In this document: in pieces, positions 343 through 23,913 of the stretch
Layout of the letters: each line of letters starts with the position of its first letter
How positions within the stretch are numbered: the stretch's first letter is position 1
Source of the DNA: a virus
DNA: 23,913 nucleotides
Direction: 5' to 3' (one strand)
IMG/VR virus record: IMGVR_UViG_3300030202_002285
Span: 7,313-31,225 of that record
Made by a program: the position numbers and the translations under genes
Notes under the pieces: generated by a model
Databases searched by the model: none
The model's input: the letters and a program-made list of their open reading frames with translations, nothing else
Told to the model about the DNA's origin: nothing

Positions 343-561
343 ATGAGTGATATTGAAAATTATGACTGGTTAGGATTATTAAAGTCTACAGTAGATGTAG
401 TAACTAATGGCTTTATAAATGATGAGGCTGCTTCTAAAAGGTATAGCATTTGTAAAGAATGTCCTTTTTTAAAAGACAGTTCTCAATGTAGAAAATGTGG
501 TTGTATGATGAAAGCAAAAGTAAAAGTAAAAGGAGCATCATGTCCAATAGGAAAATGGTAA
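343..561 (+). CDS. small zinc-ribbon-like protein
   Basis: A 72-residue protein with a good ribosome binding site (GGGAGAG, 334-340) ahead of the ATG. The second half carries six cysteines (C37, C40, C49, C52, C54, C67) in the order CxxC, CxxCxC and a final CP near the end, with basic residues between. This spacing suggests one structural zinc site, as in small phage zinc-ribbon proteins often found in tailed-phage genomes. The N-terminal 30 residues look helical. It ends inside the next gene's start region (22-base overlap). It sits just ahead of the packaging genes, so a role in packaging or late expression is possible, but nothing in the sequence decides this. I do not recognise a specific family. 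Confidence 0.75.
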   Translation: MSDIENYDWLGLLKSTVDVVTNGFINDEAASKRYSICKECPFLKDSSQCRKCGCMMKAKVKVKGASCPIGKW

Positions 562-2400: not shown

Positions 2401-2793
2401 ATGCCTAGATTTGGTAAAAGAAGTAATGCAAAGCTTGCAAGTTCTGATGAAAGATTGCAAAAAGTATTTAATGAAGTTATAAAGCATGTAGACTGTTCTG
2501 TATTAGAAGGACACAGGTCTAAGGATAGGCAAAATAAATTATATGACGAAGGAAAAACTAAAGTCCGTTACCCAAAAGGTAGGCATAATGCTAGCCCTTC
2601 TCTCGCTGTTGATGTCGTGCCTTACCCTATTGACTGGCATGATAGAGAACGTTTCCACCTTTTTGCTGGGTATGTCCTTGGGGTGGCTCGTGGGATGGGT
2701 ATTACTCTTCGTTGGGGAGGAGACTGGAATATGAACTTTGAAGTTGATGATAATAAATTTGACGACTTCCCACATTTTGAGGTAAGAGATTAA
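2401..2793 (+). CDS. M15-family metallopeptidase (endolysin candidate)
   Basis: A 130-residue protein after an AAGGAG site. It has the layout of phage M15 peptidases (T5-type L-Ala-D-Glu peptidases and VanY-like carboxypeptidases): a GHRS strand (37-40), then H62 and D71 in RHNASPSLAVDVVP, and the final PHFE with H125. In the family these His/Asp/His residues bind catalytic zinc, and the enzyme cuts the stem peptide of peptidoglycan. There is no signal peptide or separate wall-binding domain, so release would need a holin. The gene is much richer in GC than its downstream neighbour (about 50% in the rows 2581-2700 against 30% at 2821-2880), which suggests a different origin for this segment. 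It overlaps the next start by one base pair run (TAATG). Confidence 0.85.
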   Translation: MPRFGKRSNAKLASSDERLQKVFNEVIKHVDCSVLEGHRSKDRQNKLYDEGKTKVRYPKGRHNASPSLAVDVVPYPIDWHDRERFHLFAGYVLGVARGMGITLRWGGDWNMNFEVDDNKFDDFPHFEVRD

Positions 2794-7163: not shown

Positions 7164-8687
7164 ATGTCTGATTTATTTAAAACTGGTGATTTATCGCCAG
7201 GCTCGAGTACTGGGATTACTACCCCTGGACTACCTTCTGGTGGAATGGGGAATCCCGATACTGGTGATCTAAGAAGAAAGTATAATTTCGGTGATCGTGT
7301 CTCTGAGTTGTCTATTGCTCAAGATCCTTTTTTTAGGTTCTTAAGTAAGGTTTCTAAAAAACCAACTGACGATCCTCAATTCAAGTTTACCGAAAAAAGG
7401 CATTCTTTTCATAAAAGATATGCTTATGTAACTGCTCATCATACATCAAGTGCTGTAAGTACTGTTGCTGCGACTGTAACTGCAACTGATATTGACGTAG
7501 ATGACGTTTACTATTGGAAAATGGAAGCTGATTACAAAACTGGTGGAAACATCACTTCTGTATATGGTAATGCTAGCAATCAAGTTAATATAGGGTCAAC
7601 AGGCACAAAGCCTGCTTTCTTTATGCAAAATCAAGTTGTTAAAATTAACTTTAATAGCTCATTACCAACAGTATCTTCATACGCAGGAAACGACTATATT
7701 CTTTGTAGAGTAATGGAAGTTACTGATAATGGTGAAGCTGTTATCCTAAAAACTAAAGTTGTTAAAACTTTAAACACAGCAACAAATAACAAGTTATGTT
7801 CATTCAAAGCAACTACTACAAGTATGACTGGTGAGAATGTTAATTCTTTAAGTGACTCATCTTCTGCAGGTATTGAACCTAAGAAGTGTTATGTTGTTGG
7901 AAATGCACATGAAGAAGGTTCTGGGTATCCTGAAACTTGGAAAGATCAGCCTTATTCTACAAGCTATGGTCAAACTCAAATATGGAAAACATCTTGCGCA
8001 ATGACTAACACTGCAAGAGCAACTGCTCTAAGATATGACCAAAATGAGTGGGCTAGAGTATGGAAAGAAAAGCTGATTGAACATAAGTTCGATATGGAAC
8101 AATCTTTATTGTTTGGTGCTCAAGAAAGTAAAGATGGTATTAATTATACCGAAGGTGCTATTAATTGGATTCTAGGAAAAGCTAATATATTTAGTGGATT
8201 CAGCATATCAAGTTATACTGCTGATGATTTCTTAGATGACATGTCTGCATACATGGACCCACGTTATGGTGGTGGTGGTTCAACAGTATTTTTCTGTTCT
8301 ACTGCTGTATATAACTGGTTACATAAATTAGGTGGATACTTCAAAAATAACGTTGAATTATCTTCTAATTTTAGAGCAGATATGGCTATTACAGGCAAAA
8401 AGAAAGTATTCGGTGTTGACATCACTACAATTTCTACTCCTTATGGAGATATGAATGTAGCTAGAAATATTCACTTAGATGGTACTGATATAAGCATACT
8501 TGCTATTGATATGAAGCATGCTGCATACAGACCTCTAGTGGGTAATGGTCTCAACAGAGATACTTCAGTGTACGTTGGTGTTCAAACTCTAGAGAACAGT
8601 GGTATCGATAGACGTGTGGACTTAATCTTAACAGAAGCAGGAATGGAATGGCAAATGCCTGAAGCTCATGCTATCTGGAAATCATAG
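7164..8687 (+). CDS. major capsid protein, SU10/DUF5309-like
   Basis: The 507-aa shell protein, starting after TAGGAGG. Visible family features are a Gly/Pro-rich leader (1-38), then NFGDRVSELSIAQDPFFRF (41-59), an alpha/beta core, and near 266-320 the segment with TQIWKTSCAMTNTA followed by a long helix (EWARVWKEKLIEHKFDMEQSLLFGAQ region). That second segment is typical of the SU10 major-capsid family of HK97-fold proteins. The C-terminal 120 residues hold the DMKHAAYRPL and GVQTLENSGIDRRVDL strands. There is no sign of an N-terminal protease-cleavage partner in the window. It follows the scaffold and precedes the small decoration-like gene by 11 bases, and is presumably the most highly expressed gene here. 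The first ~150 bases are richer in GC than the rest. Confidence 0.9.
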   Translation: MSDLFKTGDLSPGSSTGITTPGLPSGGMGNPDTGDLRRKYNFGDRVSELSIAQDPFFRFLSKVSKKPTDDPQFKFTEKRHSFHKRYAYVTAHHTSSAVSTVAATVTATDIDVDDVYYWKMEADYKTGGNITSVYGNASNQVNIGSTGTKPAFFMQNQVVKINFNSSLPTVSSYAGNDYILCRVMEVTDNGEAVILKTKVVKTLNTATNNKLCSFKATTTSMTGENVNSLSDSSSAGIEPKKCYVVGNAHEEGSGYPETWKDQPYSTSYGQTQIWKTSCAMTNTARATALRYDQNEWARVWKEKLIEHKFDMEQSLLFGAQESKDGINYTEGAINWILGKANIFSGFSISSYTADDFLDDMSAYMDPRYGGGGSTVFFCSTAVYNWLHKLGGYFKNNVELSSNFRADMAITGKKKVFGVDITTISTPYGDMNVARNIHLDGTDISILAIDMKHAAYRPLVGNGLNRDTSVYVGVQTLENSGIDRRVDLILTEAGMEWQMPEAHAIWKS

Positions 8688-14847: not shown

Positions 14848-17800
14848 TTGCCTAAAAAGAACTATATAATAAAAGATTTTAGTGGTGGAGTAAATCAGTT
14901 TTCTGCTACTTCTGAGTTAGAAGATAGTGAAGCTCTTAGGTCTATAAACTTAAGGGGTGATAGGGATGGGAAGTTAAGAGTTGGTTCTCATCCTGTAGCT
15001 TTAAATACATCTTCTTTAACTAATCATTTTACTGCAGGAGAAGGTTTTTATTCAAAAAACACAGATTACATTACTGATCAATTAAGTAGTGCTTACCCTG
15101 CTGTTCCTAATACTAATGTAGTTATAGACCAGTCAAGCACTATTATTACTGATACTGCAACACCAGGTGAATTAGTATGGGATTCTGGGCATGCAAATTA
15201 TGCAGGAGCTACAGTTAAATTTGGGGTAAATGATAATTTCTCTAATTTTAAAGCAGGTCAGTGTTATCATGTTCGAATGTTAATATTAAACACTAACAGA
15301 AATAATGAAACTGCTTGGCCTGGATGGTTAGAAGCTCATATTTCGGACGATAATCCTACAACCTATGCTGGGTCTGACCCAGACTACTATATGCGTAATA
15401 CGGGCTATATAGGACCTAATGGAGGCATATTTATAAAGTCAAACGAACATAACGCAGTTCCAGCAGGATATTCTCAATGTACAACAAGTACAAAAAATTA
15501 TTATGTAGTTGTAGACTTTGTTATTAAAGCTCCGTATTATTTTCATGGAGGAGGTAATACAGGAAGTTTATGGTTGTTAGGCCATCCAAATGGAACAGTT
15601 ACAGCTGGTTATAATATATGGAGATTAGCTGGTTTATCTTTTAAGGAAGTTCCAAGTGAAGTTGGAGTTGCTACAGCTGCAGGTCAATTAATAACAGATG
15701 CTCCTGAACTTATGTATGTTAATAGAGATGCAATTATACAAAGTAATGCTAACTCTATAGGAGCTCCAGTTACTTCAATGCAATATAAAAATTATGCAAA
15801 TAGTGATGCTACTGGTTCTCCAACATCTAAATCTACATCTTCTTCTCAACATAATGCTTTTCAAGTAGGTCAATTGTCAAGACATTCAAGTGGAGACTTT
15901 ATAGAAAATAAAACTAGTGAGCCTAAAATAGTAGGACCTTTAGTTAAAAATACAAACGATGGTTTAGGCGGTATAGGTTCTACTGTTACTACTAACGCTA
16001 CTTCAACAACTATTAATAATGATAAGTTTCCTTTTATTAAACATGATGAGATTAGACAATATTATACAAGAGCTCAAGACCCAAACTCTGTTCACATGTA
16101 TCCTGATAAGGTTGTAGGTGGATTAGGAAGAAAGTTAGTAAGTCATGTAAATACAACTAACTTAGATAGATATGATCTTGCTAAACTAATAACTCAAGGT
16201 CAAATAGGTCTTTCTGTAACTCAACCAAGTGCAAATGGCTCTGAAATAAAAGAAGAATGGAAAAAGAAATGGAAGTTTGGAATAGCATATAAGTTAATAG
16301 ATAATAGTTATACAAATGTTCAAGAAGGTGGTAGTATTTGCCTTACCTCTGAAAATGGTACAGTAATAGAATACGCCTTTTTAGACCCTAAATATGAAGC
16401 AGGAACAACTAATGGATTCCATGCAGGTAGAACTATTACTATGAATGGAGGCAGTGCTAACCCTACCAATGTAGGTGTTTATGCTTCTGAAGGCTCTTTA
16501 ACAGCCACATTAGTAACTGCAGCTAATACAGCTAAAAATAAAGAACCTTTTGAAATTCCTAATACACAGATACCTGGAAGAGGTAGTCAAACAGCAACAG
16601 GATTTGTTTATGCTAGTAAAGCTAATGTGGATTTAGAACTAGATTTAACTGCAGCCGCATGGACAGAGAATCCTAGATTTGAATTATTCTTTAAGGAAGA
16701 TATACACGAACATTTTGGAGAGATTTTACCAGACGTTAGTTTAGCAGGTTTATCTGGATTAGGTTATACTTTAGATGACGAAAGCAGTTGGATTCACTAC
16801 TTAGGTGGTAACACAAATGGAAGAGACCCAAGAATAGACGGGTTTATTGTTTTTATGTATTCAGATGAAGATTTAGCTGTTGATGAAGATTTGCCTTGGC
16901 AACCTTTATTTGAGGTAAATTTAAATACTAAAGAGTATAAAAACTGGACATATGATCAACAGTGGAGAAAATTTGAACAAAGTACAGAAGATGCATCAAG
17001 CATGGGACATACTTTTGCTACATATACTACAGATGAGAAATTTGCACATGATGGTTCTTATAATTGCGAAAGAGTTCCAGACCCTACTTCTTTTACTTAT
17101 TCTGACTTAATACCTTACAGTTCTACAGAACAAACTAAAGTAAGATGGAAAAGTTCAGCTGTAATAAATGGAAGAGCAGTTATTGGAAACACATATCAAG
17201 ATAACAGAGCTTATGGAGACAGAATAATTGTTTCTGCTCCTGGGACAATAGATGTTTTTCCTGAAACATATTCTTTTGATGTAGGCTCAGGTGATGGTCA
17301 ATCTATTGTAGCTATGGAATCTTTTAACGATAAATTGTTAGTCTTTAAACAAAAAACATTATATATACTTAATTTTACAGACCCTGAAAACTTTTTTGTT
17401 GAAGCTGATTATGATTTTTATGGTCTTAAGAATCCTGCAGCAGTATGTAGTTCTGATTTTGGTGTAAGCTGGTTATCTGAAAAAAGAGGTGTATTACATT
17501 ACAATGGCTCAGAGATAAAAGACTTATCAACAGGGAAACTAGATTTAGAAAGTTTGTCTAATTCTTTAGATGACGGATGGAACGATTTACACAGACCTTT
17601 AGTAGGCTTTGCTCCTAAAACACAATCTTTGTTATTAGTAGTAGATTCTTATATGAATGGTACTGGAGCTGCAGCTACTAAGTCTGAATCTGCTTGGGTG
17701 TATGATTTTAGAAATGAAGATTGGTGGATGATGGATCAACTAACTAACAATGTTGCTTTTTCTAATCTTCAAAATGGAAAGTCTGGAGATATTATTTATG

Positions 17801-18285
17801 CATCTAGTGGTATTGTCAGTACGGTTGCATACCCTACTAATTCAGCAGTAAACCCTGTTTCAAAACTAGATTTAATGACTATTAATGGAGTTGCAGGCTC
17901 AAGAAGGGGAGTATATCAAACTAAAGAAATTGATTTTGGAGATGCTGGTTTATTAAAAAATGTTTATAAAGTTTCTGTTAAATGGAAAAGAGGAGCACTT
18001 GATGTTAATGTTGCTAATGGATACACATTAAAAGCTGTTATAAATGGTAATTACGATGATGGAGATTTAAAAGCATTTAACGGTTCTGGAGGTGCAAACA
18101 TATTAAATGGTGTAGATACTGATAATGATTGGATTGTTAGAGATATAGTTCCTGCAACTCCTGCTCAGTTTAAAAATATTAAAACGTTTGCACTTCAAAT
18201 AGGACATGCATCAGACAGTAGTCAATCAAGCAAATTTGAATTAGATAGTATTAGCATTACATATAGAATTAAGGCAGCAACTTAA
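14848..18285 (+). CDS. large hub/neck protein, P22 gp10-like propeller with inserted domains
   Basis: The only usable start is a TTG (14848) right after the previous stop: the conserved opening IIKDFSGGVNQ and the DSEALRSINL stretch begin only a few codons later and no ATG precedes them in frame. The 1145-aa protein has that N-terminal phage-neck signature (about 7-45). About 100-265 is a beta-sandwich-like region (opening GELVWDSGHANY) that looks like a carbohydrate-binding insertion. More beta domains follow. Toward the end (about 765-890) there are strands YGDRIIVSAPGTIDVFP, LLVFKQKTLYILNF and WLSEKRGVLHYNG. The last pattern is shared by P22 gp10-like and other tail-hub propeller proteins that close the neck. 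The C-terminal 200 residues are again beta-rich. It is much longer than P22 gp10. Confidence 0.7.
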   Translation: MPKKNYIIKDFSGGVNQFSATSELEDSEALRSINLRGDRDGKLRVGSHPVALNTSSLTNHFTAGEGFYSKNTDYITDQLSSAYPAVPNTNVVIDQSSTIITDTATPGELVWDSGHANYAGATVKFGVNDNFSNFKAGQCYHVRMLILNTNRNNETAWPGWLEAHISDDNPTTYAGSDPDYYMRNTGYIGPNGGIFIKSNEHNAVPAGYSQCTTSTKNYYVVVDFVIKAPYYFHGGGNTGSLWLLGHPNGTVTAGYNIWRLAGLSFKEVPSEVGVATAAGQLITDAPELMYVNRDAIIQSNANSIGAPVTSMQYKNYANSDATGSPTSKSTSSSQHNAFQVGQLSRHSSGDFIENKTSEPKIVGPLVKNTNDGLGGIGSTVTTNATSTTINNDKFPFIKHDEIRQYYTRAQDPNSVHMYPDKVVGGLGRKLVSHVNTTNLDRYDLAKLITQGQIGLSVTQPSANGSEIKEEWKKKWKFGIAYKLIDNSYTNVQEGGSICLTSENGTVIEYAFLDPKYEAGTTNGFHAGRTITMNGGSANPTNVGVYASEGSLTATLVTAANTAKNKEPFEIPNTQIPGRGSQTATGFVYASKANVDLELDLTAAAWTENPRFELFFKEDIHEHFGEILPDVSLAGLSGLGYTLDDESSWIHYLGGNTNGRDPRIDGFIVFMYSDEDLAVDEDLPWQPLFEVNLNTKEYKNWTYDQQWRKFEQSTEDASSMGHTFATYTTDEKFAHDGSYNCERVPDPTSFTYSDLIPYSSTEQTKVRWKSSAVINGRAVIGNTYQDNRAYGDRIIVSAPGTIDVFPETYSFDVGSGDGQSIVAMESFNDKLLVFKQKTLYILNFTDPENFFVEADYDFYGLKNPAAVCSSDFGVSWLSEKRGVLHYNGSEIKDLSTGKLDLESLSNSLDDGWNDLHRPLVGFAPKTQSLLLVVDSYMNGTGAAATKSESAWVYDFRNEDWWMMDQLTNNVAFSNLQNGKSGDIIYASSGIVSTVAYPTNSAVNPVSKLDLMTINGVAGSRRGVYQTKEIDFGDAGLLKNVYKVSVKWKRGALDVNVANGYTLKAVINGNYDDGDLKAFNGSGGANILNGVDTDNDWIVRDIVPATPAQFKNIKTFALQIGHASDSSQSSKFELDSISITYRIKAAT

Positions 18286-19845: not shown

Positions 19846-21333
19846 ATGCCCGAATTTGACGTAAATGAATGGTTAGAAGATAATGGATATGACACAGGTG
19901 AAAACGCTAGTGATCAATTAGACGATTACTGGGGTAATGCTGACTATAATATAGAAGCATTATTAAGCGTAGACCAAATGTTGTTAGCAGACTCTGCTGA
20001 CCCTTTAGCTTCTAGTATGTATGAATGGAGCTTAGCAAATCCTGAATATACAGGAGCTGAATTTGCAGAAGAAATGTTTAATGTTATGTGGGCATCTGCT
20101 AGCTCAGCAGCTCAAACAGAGTTTGTAAATACTTGGAATAACTGGGCTGCAGACCATGAAGATTCAGATAATGTTAGCATATATGATAATGATATTTCAG
20201 GTGCCGCAGCTGAGTGGGGTGCAATATATGGACCTACTTTTGACAGTGGTGCAGATTTTTTTAATCCTAATATAGATGAAAGTTTTATAGCAATGAACAC
20301 GGGTATGGAAAGTTTAATAAACTCTTATAACCAACAATACGGTACAACGGCTTATCAAAATCAAATAGATATGTTAGCTTTAGAAGAAGCAGATTATGAA
20401 AATCGTTCAGAAGATTATACCACTTCTATGCTAGAACAATTAGAAGGATTAAGTATACAAGCAGGAAGTGCTAAAGATCAGTATTCTTTATTAGGTAAGA
20501 AAGATTTATCTGCACAAGCAGCTAGAGGTTTAAGTCAAAAAAGCAAAGGATTGTTAAGTAATAATTTAGATTTAAAATCCTTAAGACTTCAATTAGAAGG
20601 TATGTCTACAAGTATGGATGCTTCTAGGACTATGGAAGAACAAAATCAAGAGCTATTACAATTAGAGTGGCAAAATCTTTTAACTGAAAATTTTAATGAA
20701 TGGAATGTAAATCAAGAATTGGCTTTTGATGATTTATTATTAGATTTAGATGGACTAGTTGATACTTTTAATCAAGCAGTTATAGGTGCTTCAGAAGAAG
20801 AGAGTGCTTTATTATGGGATCAATTAAGTGCTATTTTAAGTTCTGGAGGCATCACACCTCCAACAACAGGCGATGGTTGGGATGATAACGATATAACAGA
20901 ACAAGGTATGTGCGTAACTACAGATGGTAATATAGGTGTTATATGCGGCATGGATACTGGTAATCCAGGAGTATGTGTTTTAAGTTTAGATGAGTGCTTA
21001 GCAACAGAAGATGATGAATTTGGTCCAGATCCAGATGCTGGGTTAGATGAAAATGGCTGTCAACCTGGTTTTTCTTGGAATGAAGAAACTCAAAATTGTG
21101 AATATACTGATGGCATTCCAGGACCTGATGATGATGAAGTTGATTGTGACCTTATTGAAAACATGGGACTTCCAGAGTGTATGCCAGAAGGTGATGACCA
21201 AACTCCACCTGATTATGATATAGAACCTCCTGAAGAAGAAGAAGATTTTAATGATTTTCCTACTACTGATCCTGATTTAGAAGATGATTTAGATTGGGAT
21301 CCTAATGATGAGTTTGGAGATAATATTAGTTAA
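19846..21333 (+). CDS. acidic helical virion protein with Cys-rich tail
   Basis: A 495-residue protein after TAGGAG. Residues 1-60 are acidic. About 150-330 is helical coiled coil (SMLEQLEGLSIQAG, MEEQNQELLQLEWQNLL). From 352 to 384 there is a Cys module, EQGMC...TTDG...VICG...DEC, followed by GCQPGFSWNEETQNCEYTDG. The last 90 residues are Asp/Glu/Pro-rich. The 352-384 module aligns with residues 332-365 of the protein at 21896-23059, which shares the same order of Cys, DG and CG. No signal peptide is present. It sits among the putative ejection proteins. The cysteines are unusual for a cytoplasmically assembled virion part. Function unknown; a structural or ejected role is likely. Confidence 0.6.
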   Translation: MPEFDVNEWLEDNGYDTGENASDQLDDYWGNADYNIEALLSVDQMLLADSADPLASSMYEWSLANPEYTGAEFAEEMFNVMWASASSAAQTEFVNTWNNWAADHEDSDNVSIYDNDISGAAAEWGAIYGPTFDSGADFFNPNIDESFIAMNTGMESLINSYNQQYGTTAYQNQIDMLALEEADYENRSEDYTTSMLEQLEGLSIQAGSAKDQYSLLGKKDLSAQAARGLSQKSKGLLSNNLDLKSLRLQLEGMSTSMDASRTMEEQNQELLQLEWQNLLTENFNEWNVNQELAFDDLLLDLDGLVDTFNQAVIGASEEESALLWDQLSAILSSGGITPPTTGDGWDDNDITEQGMCVTTDGNIGVICGMDTGNPGVCVLSLDECLATEDDEFGPDPDAGLDENGCQPGFSWNEETQNCEYTDGIPGPDDDEVDCDLIENMGLPECMPEGDDQTPPDYDIEPPEEEEDFNDFPTTDPDLEDDLDWDPNDEFGDNIS

Positions 21334-21896
21334 TGGACTATAATTTTAAAATAGGAAATTTTGAAGGAGTAGGTAATAGGAAAAGGCCTAATAATGATAT
21401 GGTATCTCAGTTTTTATCTGATAATAGCTCTGTATGGAAAGATTTTGATGTCTACCTATGGGGTAGTTACCCTGACAATAAAAAGACCTGGGATGTTGAT
21501 TTTTTAGTTCATGCACCTCAAGGAATTGATACTGAGCAAATGGAAGAAATAAGTGTACGCTCTCTTGAAAATAGTATAATAAAGAATAAATTTTTAGCTG
21601 ACATTGGTTTTTCAGATGAACAAAATATGATTGACTTTAATAATGTTATGAATACTTATAATACAACAGGTAACAAAACTCCTACTACAGGTTACATATA
21701 TGCTGATAAATGGTATGCTGGTGACTCAGTATTTAGAGATAGAAATAAGATTACAGAAGGTATCTTAGAAGAAATGGATAATAATATGTATAAAAAAACA
21801 TCGTTTATACCTTATCCTAAAATGGTTAATAATATTAAAAAAGATATAAATTACTATAAAGACAAACCTATGTTAGTTTCAAGGAGAGGAGAATAA
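21333..21896 (+). CDS. DNA polymerase beta-type nucleotidyltransferase (MNT-like)
   Basis: A 187-residue protein overlapping both neighbours by TAATG junctions. Residues 38-60 match the NTase active-site strand-turn-strand: YLWGS (41-45) then WDVDFLV (53-59), giving the hG-S and D-x-D (D54, D56) residues that bind two metals. A third acidic residue may be D90 in FLADIGF. The remainder is helical and basic at the end (KMVNNIKKDINYYKDK). In the superfamily such proteins transfer NMP to proteins, RNA or small molecules. Substrate and partner are not readable here. It is embedded between two virion-type proteins, which suggests late expression and perhaps packaging or injection. The motif match is good, but the third carboxylate is only a guess. 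Confidence 0.72.
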   Translation: MDYNFKIGNFEGVGNRKRPNNDMVSQFLSDNSSVWKDFDVYLWGSYPDNKKTWDVDFLVHAPQGIDTEQMEEISVRSLENSIIKNKFLADIGFSDEQNMIDFNNVMNTYNTTGNKTPTTGYIYADKWYAGDSVFRDRNKITEGILEEMDNNMYKKTSFIPYPKMVNNIKKDINYYKDKPMLVSRRGE

Positions 21897-23059
21897 TGGC
21901 AAATTGTTATAATGTAGCAGGTGATAGTACTTCTTGTTCAGCTAATGACTGTATAGGCAGTGATTGTTCAGGTAGTTATGAAGTAGGAGGAACTGTAATT
22001 AATGATCCAGATTTTGGATTAGAAGGCTTTGCAGGCATGTCGCAAGATGAATTTCAACAATGGTTTATAGGGTTACATGACTGGGGTACTGTTTATGAAG
22101 GTAATGCTAACCCTGGTGTATCAGACCCAACATATATAGATGAAGATTCAGCCTCTCAATTATCAGAACTTTTTCAAGGCTATAATACTTTAGAAGAAAT
22201 GTATTTAAGAGGACAAAATCAAGAGAATGAGATAGAAAGAACTCTTCAATTAGAAGCGTGGGATGAGGCAACAAATTTATTAATAGAAGAAAAAAATGCT
22301 AGAAACCAATCGTTTACCGATAAACAAAAAGAATTATTTATGCTAAATGAATCATTTGACGACTATGTTTCATCTTGGCAAAATAAAGCAGATATTACAG
22401 AGTCAGTAAAAAGAAAAAGAGATTTAGAAAACCAAAGCACACGACCAGGAAGGTTGATGTCAGATGAAAAGAAATTAATGGATGATACGGTAAAAGATGT
22501 GTTAAATGATTTCTACTCAAAACAAGATTTTCAAGATGAGAAAATAAAAGCAAAACTTTCTTTAATGGACACAAGAACAGCAAACATATATAACTCTTCT
22601 ATTTTAAAGAAACAAAATGATTTAGAAGAAAGACAAACTAAATTGGTAAATGATTTAAACAAAGCAGATGTTAAGCTTCACGAACAAATATTAAGCTTAA
22701 GAGAAGAGTATGAATTAGATATATATAATACTATAGAAGACTTAGGTATAACAGGTGCTTTTTTTGAAACAGAATATGAAAATGAGCCTACTAATTTTGA
22801 GTGTCTCCAATGGTCAGATTCTGGCGAGTGTTTAAATTGGAATGAGTCAGGTGCTTTAGGTGGAGATTCTAACCCTGATAATGTACAAGATGAAGGCTTG
22901 TGTTATATGACAACATGTGATGGTACAACAGTTCCAGTAAACTGTGGTGAATATTCTCAAGGCCATTACTTTGTAGACCCTGATGCTTGCTATGATCCAG
23001 AAAGCGAATGTATACCGATTCTTAACCTTCTAGGACAAGACACTGGTAATTGTGATTAA
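21896..23059 (+). CDS. helical virion protein with Cys-rich motifs at both ends
   Basis: A 387-residue protein after GGAGAGG. It begins MANCYNVAGDSTSC, whose C-Y-N-x-x-G-x-x-x-S-C spacing equals that in the 1-327 protein. Residues about 90-290 form a charged helical coiled coil (ENEIERTLQLEAWDEATNLL and on). Residues 332-365 repeat the Cys module of the 19846-21333 protein. The last 16 residues, CIPILNLLGQDTGNCD, match the last 16 of the 1-327 protein in spacing (CxPxxN[ML]LGQxxxxCD-stop). There is no signal peptide or membrane helix. It is probably a virion or ejected protein, from position and architecture. Confidence 0.65.
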   Translation: MANCYNVAGDSTSCSANDCIGSDCSGSYEVGGTVINDPDFGLEGFAGMSQDEFQQWFIGLHDWGTVYEGNANPGVSDPTYIDEDSASQLSELFQGYNTLEEMYLRGQNQENEIERTLQLEAWDEATNLLIEEKNARNQSFTDKQKELFMLNESFDDYVSSWQNKADITESVKRKRDLENQSTRPGRLMSDEKKLMDDTVKDVLNDFYSKQDFQDEKIKAKLSLMDTRTANIYNSSILKKQNDLEERQTKLVNDLNKADVKLHEQILSLREEYELDIYNTIEDLGITGAFFETEYENEPTNFECLQWSDSGECLNWNESGALGGDSNPDNVQDEGLCYMTTCDGTTVPVNCGEYSQGHYFVDPDACYDPESECIPILNLLGQDTGNCD

Positions 23060-23115: not shown

Positions 23116-23913
23116 ATGGCAAAATATAAACATTTAGATCAGACTCCTGATACTCTACAGCAGTTTATAGCTCAAATTCCTTCTTTAATTAGTAACTTTA
23201 GGTCTTTAACTATAGAAGAAACTAGACGTAAAGAAACTGAAGAAACAAGAAAAATAGAAAGAAACGAAGATATTGCTCGTAGAACAAAATGGAGAGAAGA
23301 AGATAAAGCAGCAAAATTAAAAGAAAAAAAAGAGAACGTGTTTATTACTAAAGCTGAAGCCCATTCAACTTATTTAAAGCAACTAAGAATATCAAAAATT
23401 GAAGAATACAATGTTGATTTAGACGCTTATGAAAAGCTAGGTATGAGTGTAGATGCATCAGATAAAATAAATCAAACAAAAGGTATGGAACAGTTAATAA
23501 CTTTGTTTACAGACCCTAATAATGTAGACTTATCTGAAAATGCATTAATAGCAAAAGAAATAAAAATATTAGAAAGTTTAATTAGTGACGTAGATTCAAG
23601 AAAAAAGAAAATAGAAGGAAGGTTGACTTTTGCAGACAACTTTAATAAAGAGATTAACAAACGAGAAAACTTTTTTGAAAAAGGTCCAGAAGATGAATTT
23701 GAAAGTATGACAGGAATACAGTATTGGACTCAAGGTGATATGGATATGTTAATATCAGATATATTAAAAGATGAAGTATTTAAAGAAGAAAACGGTGTTC
23801 ATGCAAATTCTAATGGTGAGTGGAAAGAATATGCTAGTGAGTATATAGAGGTTATACAAAACCCTTCAGATGCAAAGCTAAGAGCAATGAATGGTGAAAT
23901 TATTAAATATCAG
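23116..23913 (+). CDS. coiled-coil protein, 5' part of a gene cut by the window end
   Basis: The frame starts at ATG 23116 (MAKYKHLDQTPDTLQQF) and stays open for 266 codons to the last base, so the gene is incomplete. The visible part is strongly charged. About 30-75 is a Lys/Glu/Arg coiled coil (EETRRKETEETRKIERNED), and more helices follow with the DYxSR-like polar runs. It contains no cysteines so far, and no recognisable enzyme motif. It follows the two Cys-rich virion proteins and may be another ejection-type or internal virion protein; the missing part could contain the family's diagnostic domain. Confidence 0.65.
   Translation, partial: MAKYKHLDQTPDTLQQFIAQIPSLISNFRSLTIEETRRKETEETRKIERNEDIARRTKWREEDKAAKLKEKKENVFITKAEAHSTYLKQLRISKIEEYNVDLDAYEKLGMSVDASDKINQTKGMEQLITLFTDPNNVDLSENALIAKEIKILESLISDVDSRKKKIEGRLTFADNFNKEINKRENFFEKGPEDEFESMTGIQYWTQGDMDMLISDILKDEVFKEENGVHANSNGEWKEYASEYIEVIQNPSDAKLRAMNGEIIKYQ

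Follow-up and report, generated by a model that had tools for sequence, protein, structure and literature searches.

Putative disulfide tails on ejection-type cassette proteins of a podovirus-like phage group

INTRODUCTION

The ejectosome of phage T7 is made up of gp14, gp15, and gp16 (internal virion proteins B, C, and D), which follow the tail protein in gene order, helix-type proteins first and a giant one last. Cysteine is scarce in these proteins: there is a single one in gp14, and both gp15 (747 aa) and gp16 (1318 aa) are devoid of it. A review of ejection proteins emphasizes that the periplasm is oxidizing and that the proteins partly unfold as they exit; the words cysteine and disulfide are absent from its main text (PMC8954989). 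Even numbers of cysteines are preferred in the secreted proteins of several Gram-negative bacteria (PMC7678975), and the mature virion of a crassvirus contains disulfide bonds in its tail (PMC10172136). Strictly paired cysteines are unexpected in the virions of tailed phages, since these are built in a reducing compartment.

Here we describe a gene cassette of uncultured, marine, podovirus-like phages that resembles that of T7 in its position after the tail protein, in the same succession of helix-type and giant proteins, and in the near absence of cysteine from its gp15- and gp16-type proteins. It differs in possessing cysteine tails, which the T7 proteins lack, and in that for two of its proteins, here called P1 and P2, homology to the T7 sequences was not detectable above chance, apart from a weak motif-level match to a gp14 homolog.

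RESULTS

The DNA analyzed here (the window, 23,913 nucleotides) covers positions 7313 to 31225 of the 52,329-base IMG/VR virus record IMGVR_UViG_3300030202_002285. Its gene set is podovirus-like, with a terminase (phrog_38, E 5e-70), a portal (phrog_156), and a major capsid protein recognized in PHROGs. The closest cultured phages show only ~25% terminase identity; IMG/VR holds hundreds of relatives, the best 80 of which show terminase identities of 73 to 91%, and the near-full-length-looking contigs of the group are about 49 to 58 kb. A terminase search of genome contigs for a host returned no relative. A second, near-identical copy of the virus region is present in IMGVR_UViG_3300030061_002585 (L001 and L131), where P2 differs at one residue. 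Short gaps (NNNN) occur in both near-identical records, and one in the window record lies just upstream of ORF1, within the ORF1 frame.

The region 3' of the large tail or internal virion-type protein (14848 to 18285; phrog_511, E 6e-5), which anchors the cassette in relatives, was compared across the relatives and the near-identical contig; this gene and all other features described with window coordinates in this and the next two paragraphs, as well as ORF1 and the cysteine segments and hairpin of P1 and P2, lie on the plus strand. The gene order is conserved: after the tail protein come fibre-type proteins, the small cysteine-free P0, and P1 and P2, then one or two longer proteins of helix type and a giant protein that can reach 3000 aa. 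In the window, P0 (18930 to 19838; 302 aa, no cysteine), which has a Gly/Ala-rich hydrophobic stretch, is the first gene of this ejection-type cassette. The genes for P1 and P2 lie after that for tail tubular protein B and before those for the gp15/gp16-type proteins, the location expected of T7-type ejection proteins. Several relatives have a methyltransferase-like gene inserted among their fibre genes (LEIGFGMGICADY; L119 6267 to 6842, L240 6652 to 7203, and L243 3667 to 4215).

P1 (19846 to 21333, 495 aa) consists of an acidic, mostly helix-type, cysteine-free body followed by a tail with 8 cysteines (aa 356 to 445) and an acidic, proline-rich C terminus. P2 (21896 to 23059, 387 aa) has 12 cysteines, which are divided between an N-terminal cluster (CYNVAGDSTSCSANDCIGSDC, aa 4 to 24, 21905 to 21967) and a C-terminal tail (aa 303 to 386, 22802 to 23053) whose eighth and last cysteine lies one residue before the end; the helix-type body between them is cysteine free. 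By eye, no signal peptide or membrane anchor is evident in P1, which starts MPEFDVNEWLEDNGYDTG and ends PNDEFGDNIS, or in P2, which starts MANCYNVAGDSTSC. AlphaFold models of window P2 and of P2 from L253, a type of prediction that the preliminary description had called for, were unusable (mean pLDDT 38 and 40).

Between P1 and P2, overlapping both at the start and stop codons, lies a gene for a nucleotidyltransferase-like protein without cysteine (21333 to 21896), which has a GS...DVD motif and matches NTP_transf_2 below cutoff (E 0.0028). Homologs 41 to 43% identical to it are encoded in the same cassette of L125 and L129, after P2. P3 (617 aa, helix type) starts at 23116 and continues past the window end at 23913; its only two cysteines form a hairpin, CGEGLIYDETTGLC (aa 547 to 560), that was read in L001.

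Pfam and PHROGs searches gave no family for P1 or P2, and the window copies had no PHROG hit. In the relatives, the two are paralogs that share a body with a GFAGSG-like loop (97.8% in hhalign for two sets compared; also found by BLASTP), and these bodies are encoded after the tail protein and before the giant one. A profile of this core matches window P2 (E 2e-4) and leaves window P1 unmatched; when iterated, it also matches a cysteine-free protein of 150 to 160 aa in the same place in looser relatives. The window P1 tail, for its part, resembles the P1 tail of L123 (score 83 versus 41 ± 8, with none of 3000 shuffles as high). A cysteine stretch was found in P1, P2, or both in the window and 12 relatives, nearly always as a C-terminal tail, and other relatives are without it. 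The same core has zero cysteines in both proteins of L117, in P1 of L122, L124, and L128, and in small pelagiphage-type proteins, and since several relatives' cores do without cysteines, the tails are dispensable for core function.

No cultured phage was hit in tblastn searches with the P1 and P2 proteins of relatives, with the giant protein's C-terminal third, or with the L049 protein discussed below, and P1/P2 proteins had no match there better than E 0.4. Profile scans with P2 and the nucleotidyltransferase returned no contigs beyond the relatives already in the set. Among 11 reference proteins, the P1/P2 family profile matched one segment of gp32 of pelagiphage HTVC011P, a gp14 homolog, at an i-E of 7e-4 (hhalign probability, 1.8%), and T7 gp14 matched the profile at a full-sequence E of 0.017, with composition bias present. 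The putative link of P1 and P2 to T7 gp14 is one of position and a weak motif only.

All 22 of the complete cysteine-tailed proteins from the window and its relatives have an even number of cysteines (2, 4, 6, 8, 10, 12, or 14). This gives a p of 2.4e-7 against a coin; of the other proteins with at least 2 cysteines at the same loci, 35% have odd counts, and at that rate p is 7e-5 (Fisher, 1.7e-4). These values are optimistic because homologs are not independent. The sole odd count, 13 in L122, belongs to a reading frame truncated where its contig stops. Six further proteins also have even counts; they are partly selected for pairs, because most were found through the hairpin motif described below. 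The counts of homologs differ, always by even numbers: in L125, L127, L129, and L128, P2 has 8, 8, 6, and 4 cysteines and P1 has 4, 4, 2, and 0, the P1 family as a whole having 4, 4, 2, 2, and 0. Cysteine conservation in relatives had been proposed as a check, and in the P2 family two cysteine columns, forming one pair, proved invariant; the remaining columns are present or absent block by block, the four-cysteine block CPCPDGGxSVxCC being lost whole in L128 and a third pair being lost whole in L129.

Spacing follows the same pairing. From an odd-numbered cysteine to the next (2i−1 to 2i), 60% of the distances are 8 to 16, with a mode of 12, compared with 28% from 2i to 2i+1 (Mann-Whitney p 1e-4). 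The tails contain 0.8% histidine and five CxxC motifs in about 2300 aa, and cysteine makes up 6.9% of them. In the other cassette proteins, taken as those encoded >1.5 kb 3' of the tail protein, there are 34 cysteines in 61,513 residues (0.055%), versus 0.72% in upstream proteins. With their even counts, their gain and loss of whole blocks, their hairpin spacing, and their few histidines and CxxC motifs, the tails look unlike random acidic cysteine-containing sequence, and the sequence offers good support for predicting that they are disulfide modules. The preliminary description had left the choice between disulfide- and metal-type modules; the former is supported, and the latter is disfavored. 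Over thousands of residues, gp15- and gp16-type ejection proteins are cysteine free or nearly so in T7 (L276), HTVC011P (L277), and loci L113 to L130, and such scarcity may be a general rule for them.

A cysteine-rich module of about 33 residues had been described as duplicated in P1 and P2. The two segments, with four cysteines each, were located as claimed (P1 aa 352 to 384, EQGMCVTTDGNIGVICGMDTGNPGVCVLSLDEC, 20899 to 20997; P2 aa 332 to 365, DEGLCYMTTCDGTTVPVNCGEYSQGHYFVDPDAC, 22889 to 22990), and no statistical support was found for the P1 segment as a duplicate of the P2 segment. BLASTP aligned them at E 1.4. Their Smith-Waterman score is 31, shuffled sequences scoring 22.1 ± 4.6; the resulting p of ~0.05 (0.04 when the shuffles keep the cysteine positions fixed) applies to a pair that had been selected by eye. 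The optimal alignment comprises EQGMC..VTTDG..VICG only, that is, the first 17 to 20 residues, and leaves out the second half. Comparison of the whole tails gave a p of 0.14, and whole-protein BLASTP of P1 against P2 found no match. With scores this near chance, the duplication is not confirmed.

The best-supported recurrent unit is instead the nearby stretch mentioned last in the preliminary description as a small cysteine loop, GCQPGFSWNEETQNCEYTDG (P1 aa 404 to 423), which is present as described. Its two-cysteine hairpin, CQPGFSWNEETQNC (aa 405 to 418, 21058 to 21099), recurs in relatives with the consensus C-P-x-G-x2-[WY]-N-x2-T-G-x-C. Carriers include window P1, P3 in its part past the window end, P1/P2 proteins of L114, L119, L123, L124, and L125, and terminase-adjacent proteins of L006, L049, and L063. 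Profiles built from other genomes in a leave-one-genome-out scheme, judged against shuffles that keep the cysteines and the pattern's own fixed residues, gave a combined p of 7e-13 (0.010 for the window P1 copy alone). Selection of the 17 members by eye and by pattern leaves some bias in this statistic. A looser hairpin pattern run over all six-frame open reading frames gave 30 occurrences versus 21 ± 3 expected; this was too weak alone, and the leave-one-genome-out profile was used in its place.

Three resemblances to known proteins were found, all of which are leads and not memberships. Among PDB sequences, the top match to the hairpin profile was contryphan-Vc1 (5kkm and 2n24; E 0.083, not significant), a single-disulfide hairpin (type sequence CxPGxx[WY]N...C); its sequence WCQPGYAYNPVLGICT and CQPGFSWNEETQNCEY are similar in cysteine spacing and turn residues, but contryphan-Vc1 is a free peptide rather than a tail module. 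The C-terminal hairpin of Pfam CBM_14 (peritrophin-A chitin-binding; positions 27 to 49) matches hairpins of L049, L006, and window P1 at E 0.0065 to 0.065; the whole domain was not found, the best hit being a partial match of 17.0 bits versus a cutoff of 22.1. The top cultured-phage match of the P1 tail was CoaA, a minor coat and adsorption protein of the filamentous phage (inovirus) Pf1. Its database E value was 0.4, and a two-sequence comparison gave 38% over 63 aa (E 6e-7, shuffle z about 10). CoaA has two hairpins of the same consensus (GCAEGSTYNAQTGVCE and GCPPGYSWSGTTCV), Gly/Pro-rich linkers, and an even number of mature cysteines (16, after residue 30). It differs in its apparent signal peptide and membrane anchor, of which none are evident in P1 and P2, and in belonging to another virus class.

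Cysteine blocks similar to those of the tails occur outside the ejection cassette. ORF1 (1 to 327), a Gly/Asp-rich protein with 8 cysteines whose 5' part is broken by the N gap, contains CYNLLGQQVSC and YNMLGQCISCCD, which resemble both ends of P2; the CYNxxGxxxSC-type motif common to ORF1 and both P2 ends has a p of 0.001 to 0.013. The terminase-neighbor proteins of L049 (16 cysteines) and L063 (8 cysteines) are homologs, 46% identical, that differ in hairpin number and have an identical four-cysteine C-terminal block, CELDNHCDDGEICVMGVC.

Other genes of these loci were noted in passing. A small zinc-ribbon-type protein (window 343 to 561; CxxC...CxxCxC...C) is conserved beside the terminase in L006, L007, L010, L040, L049, and L061. 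A peptidase-like protein (window 2401 to 2793; HNASPSLAVDVVPYPIDW...HFEVRD) adjoins the terminase. It is conserved in L049 and L063, and in these two an additional cysteine-rich protein separates it from the terminase. The protein at L114 3295 to 4881 has a tail with DECGVCGGDGSSCKDCAGVPNGSAVVDDCGVCNGNNAC repeats, which resemble repeats of extracellular bacterial proteins.

DISCUSSION

On balance, we favor the reading that P1, P2, ORF1, and P3 are late virion-type proteins with small disulfide modules in their tails, the clearest of them a single-disulfide hairpin; the modules would remain reduced until the proteins leave the cytoplasm and only then close. The gene neighborhood of P1 and P2 fits ejection proteins, and the tails are taken as modules closing outside the cytoplasm because even cysteine numbers mark exported proteins of several Gram-negative bacteria (PMC7678975) and a crassvirus tail has disulfides (PMC10172136). 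During virion assembly in the host cytoplasm, the tail cysteines would be reduced and the tails probably unstructured and acidic. The cysteines would oxidize in pairs only after export, in the periplasm if the proteins are ejected during infection, or in seawater once the cell has lysed. A closed tail could form a rigid, exposed tip that would act as a binding element or as a locking element for the assembly in the envelope, or its role might be no more than protective. We infer that P1 and P2, as putative virion proteins, are ejected and oxidized after leaving the cytoplasm, and that the closed tail has a role of this kind.

A bolder proposal, which we consider doubtful, joins the tails to the cysteine scarcity of the rest of the cassette as a redox switch: the ejection-cassette proteins would have been purged of cysteine, leaving them free to unfold and refold, and the paired-cysteine tails would oxidize shut after ejection and make envelope insertion irreversible. 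The narrower idea that cysteine avoidance serves passage through an oxidizing space is one that we infer from the scarcity. Somewhat less doubtful, if still unlikely, is a function in surface adhesion, whereby P1, P2, and the terminase-neighbor proteins would sit on the virion exterior, become oxidized once lysis has released them into seawater, and attach to the surfaces of hosts or particles. The tails are hypervariable on conserved cores, like binding tips, similar blocks occur in the terminase-neighbor proteins outside the ejection cassette, and the best match of the P1 tail is CoaA, whose cysteine loops may bind likewise. However, that match is far from significant database-wide, P1 and P2 lack an evident signal peptide, and they lie between the tail and giant internal-type proteins, with separate fibre genes upstream.

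Zinc or iron-sulfur binding could be read into the clusters CPCPDGGxSVxCC and CGNC, and Pfam LRV_FeS touches ORF1 (E 0.026, far below cutoff). The low histidine content and the rarity of CxxC make a metal site very improbable, as does the gain and loss of pairs as well as quartets; no paired CxxC knuckles or Pfam metal-site match at cutoff was found in the tails, and the nearby zinc-ribbon-type protein looks quite different. Lowest in our estimation stands the view that the cysteines are incidental to drifting, low-complexity acidic tails. The hypervariability of the tails, their absence from some relatives, and the chance-level score of the 33-residue module would agree with it, but the even counts, the hairpin consensus, and the cysteine density of 6.9%, versus 0.055% in other cassette proteins, would not.

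If real, paired cysteines would tell which parts of the virion work outside the cytoplasm, and the scarcity of cysteine in ejection-type proteins, T7 gp15 and gp16 included, would provide a simple, testable signature for proteins that have to cross the oxidizing periplasm unfolded. There is also a hint that one small disulfide hairpin may be common to tailed and filamentous phages.
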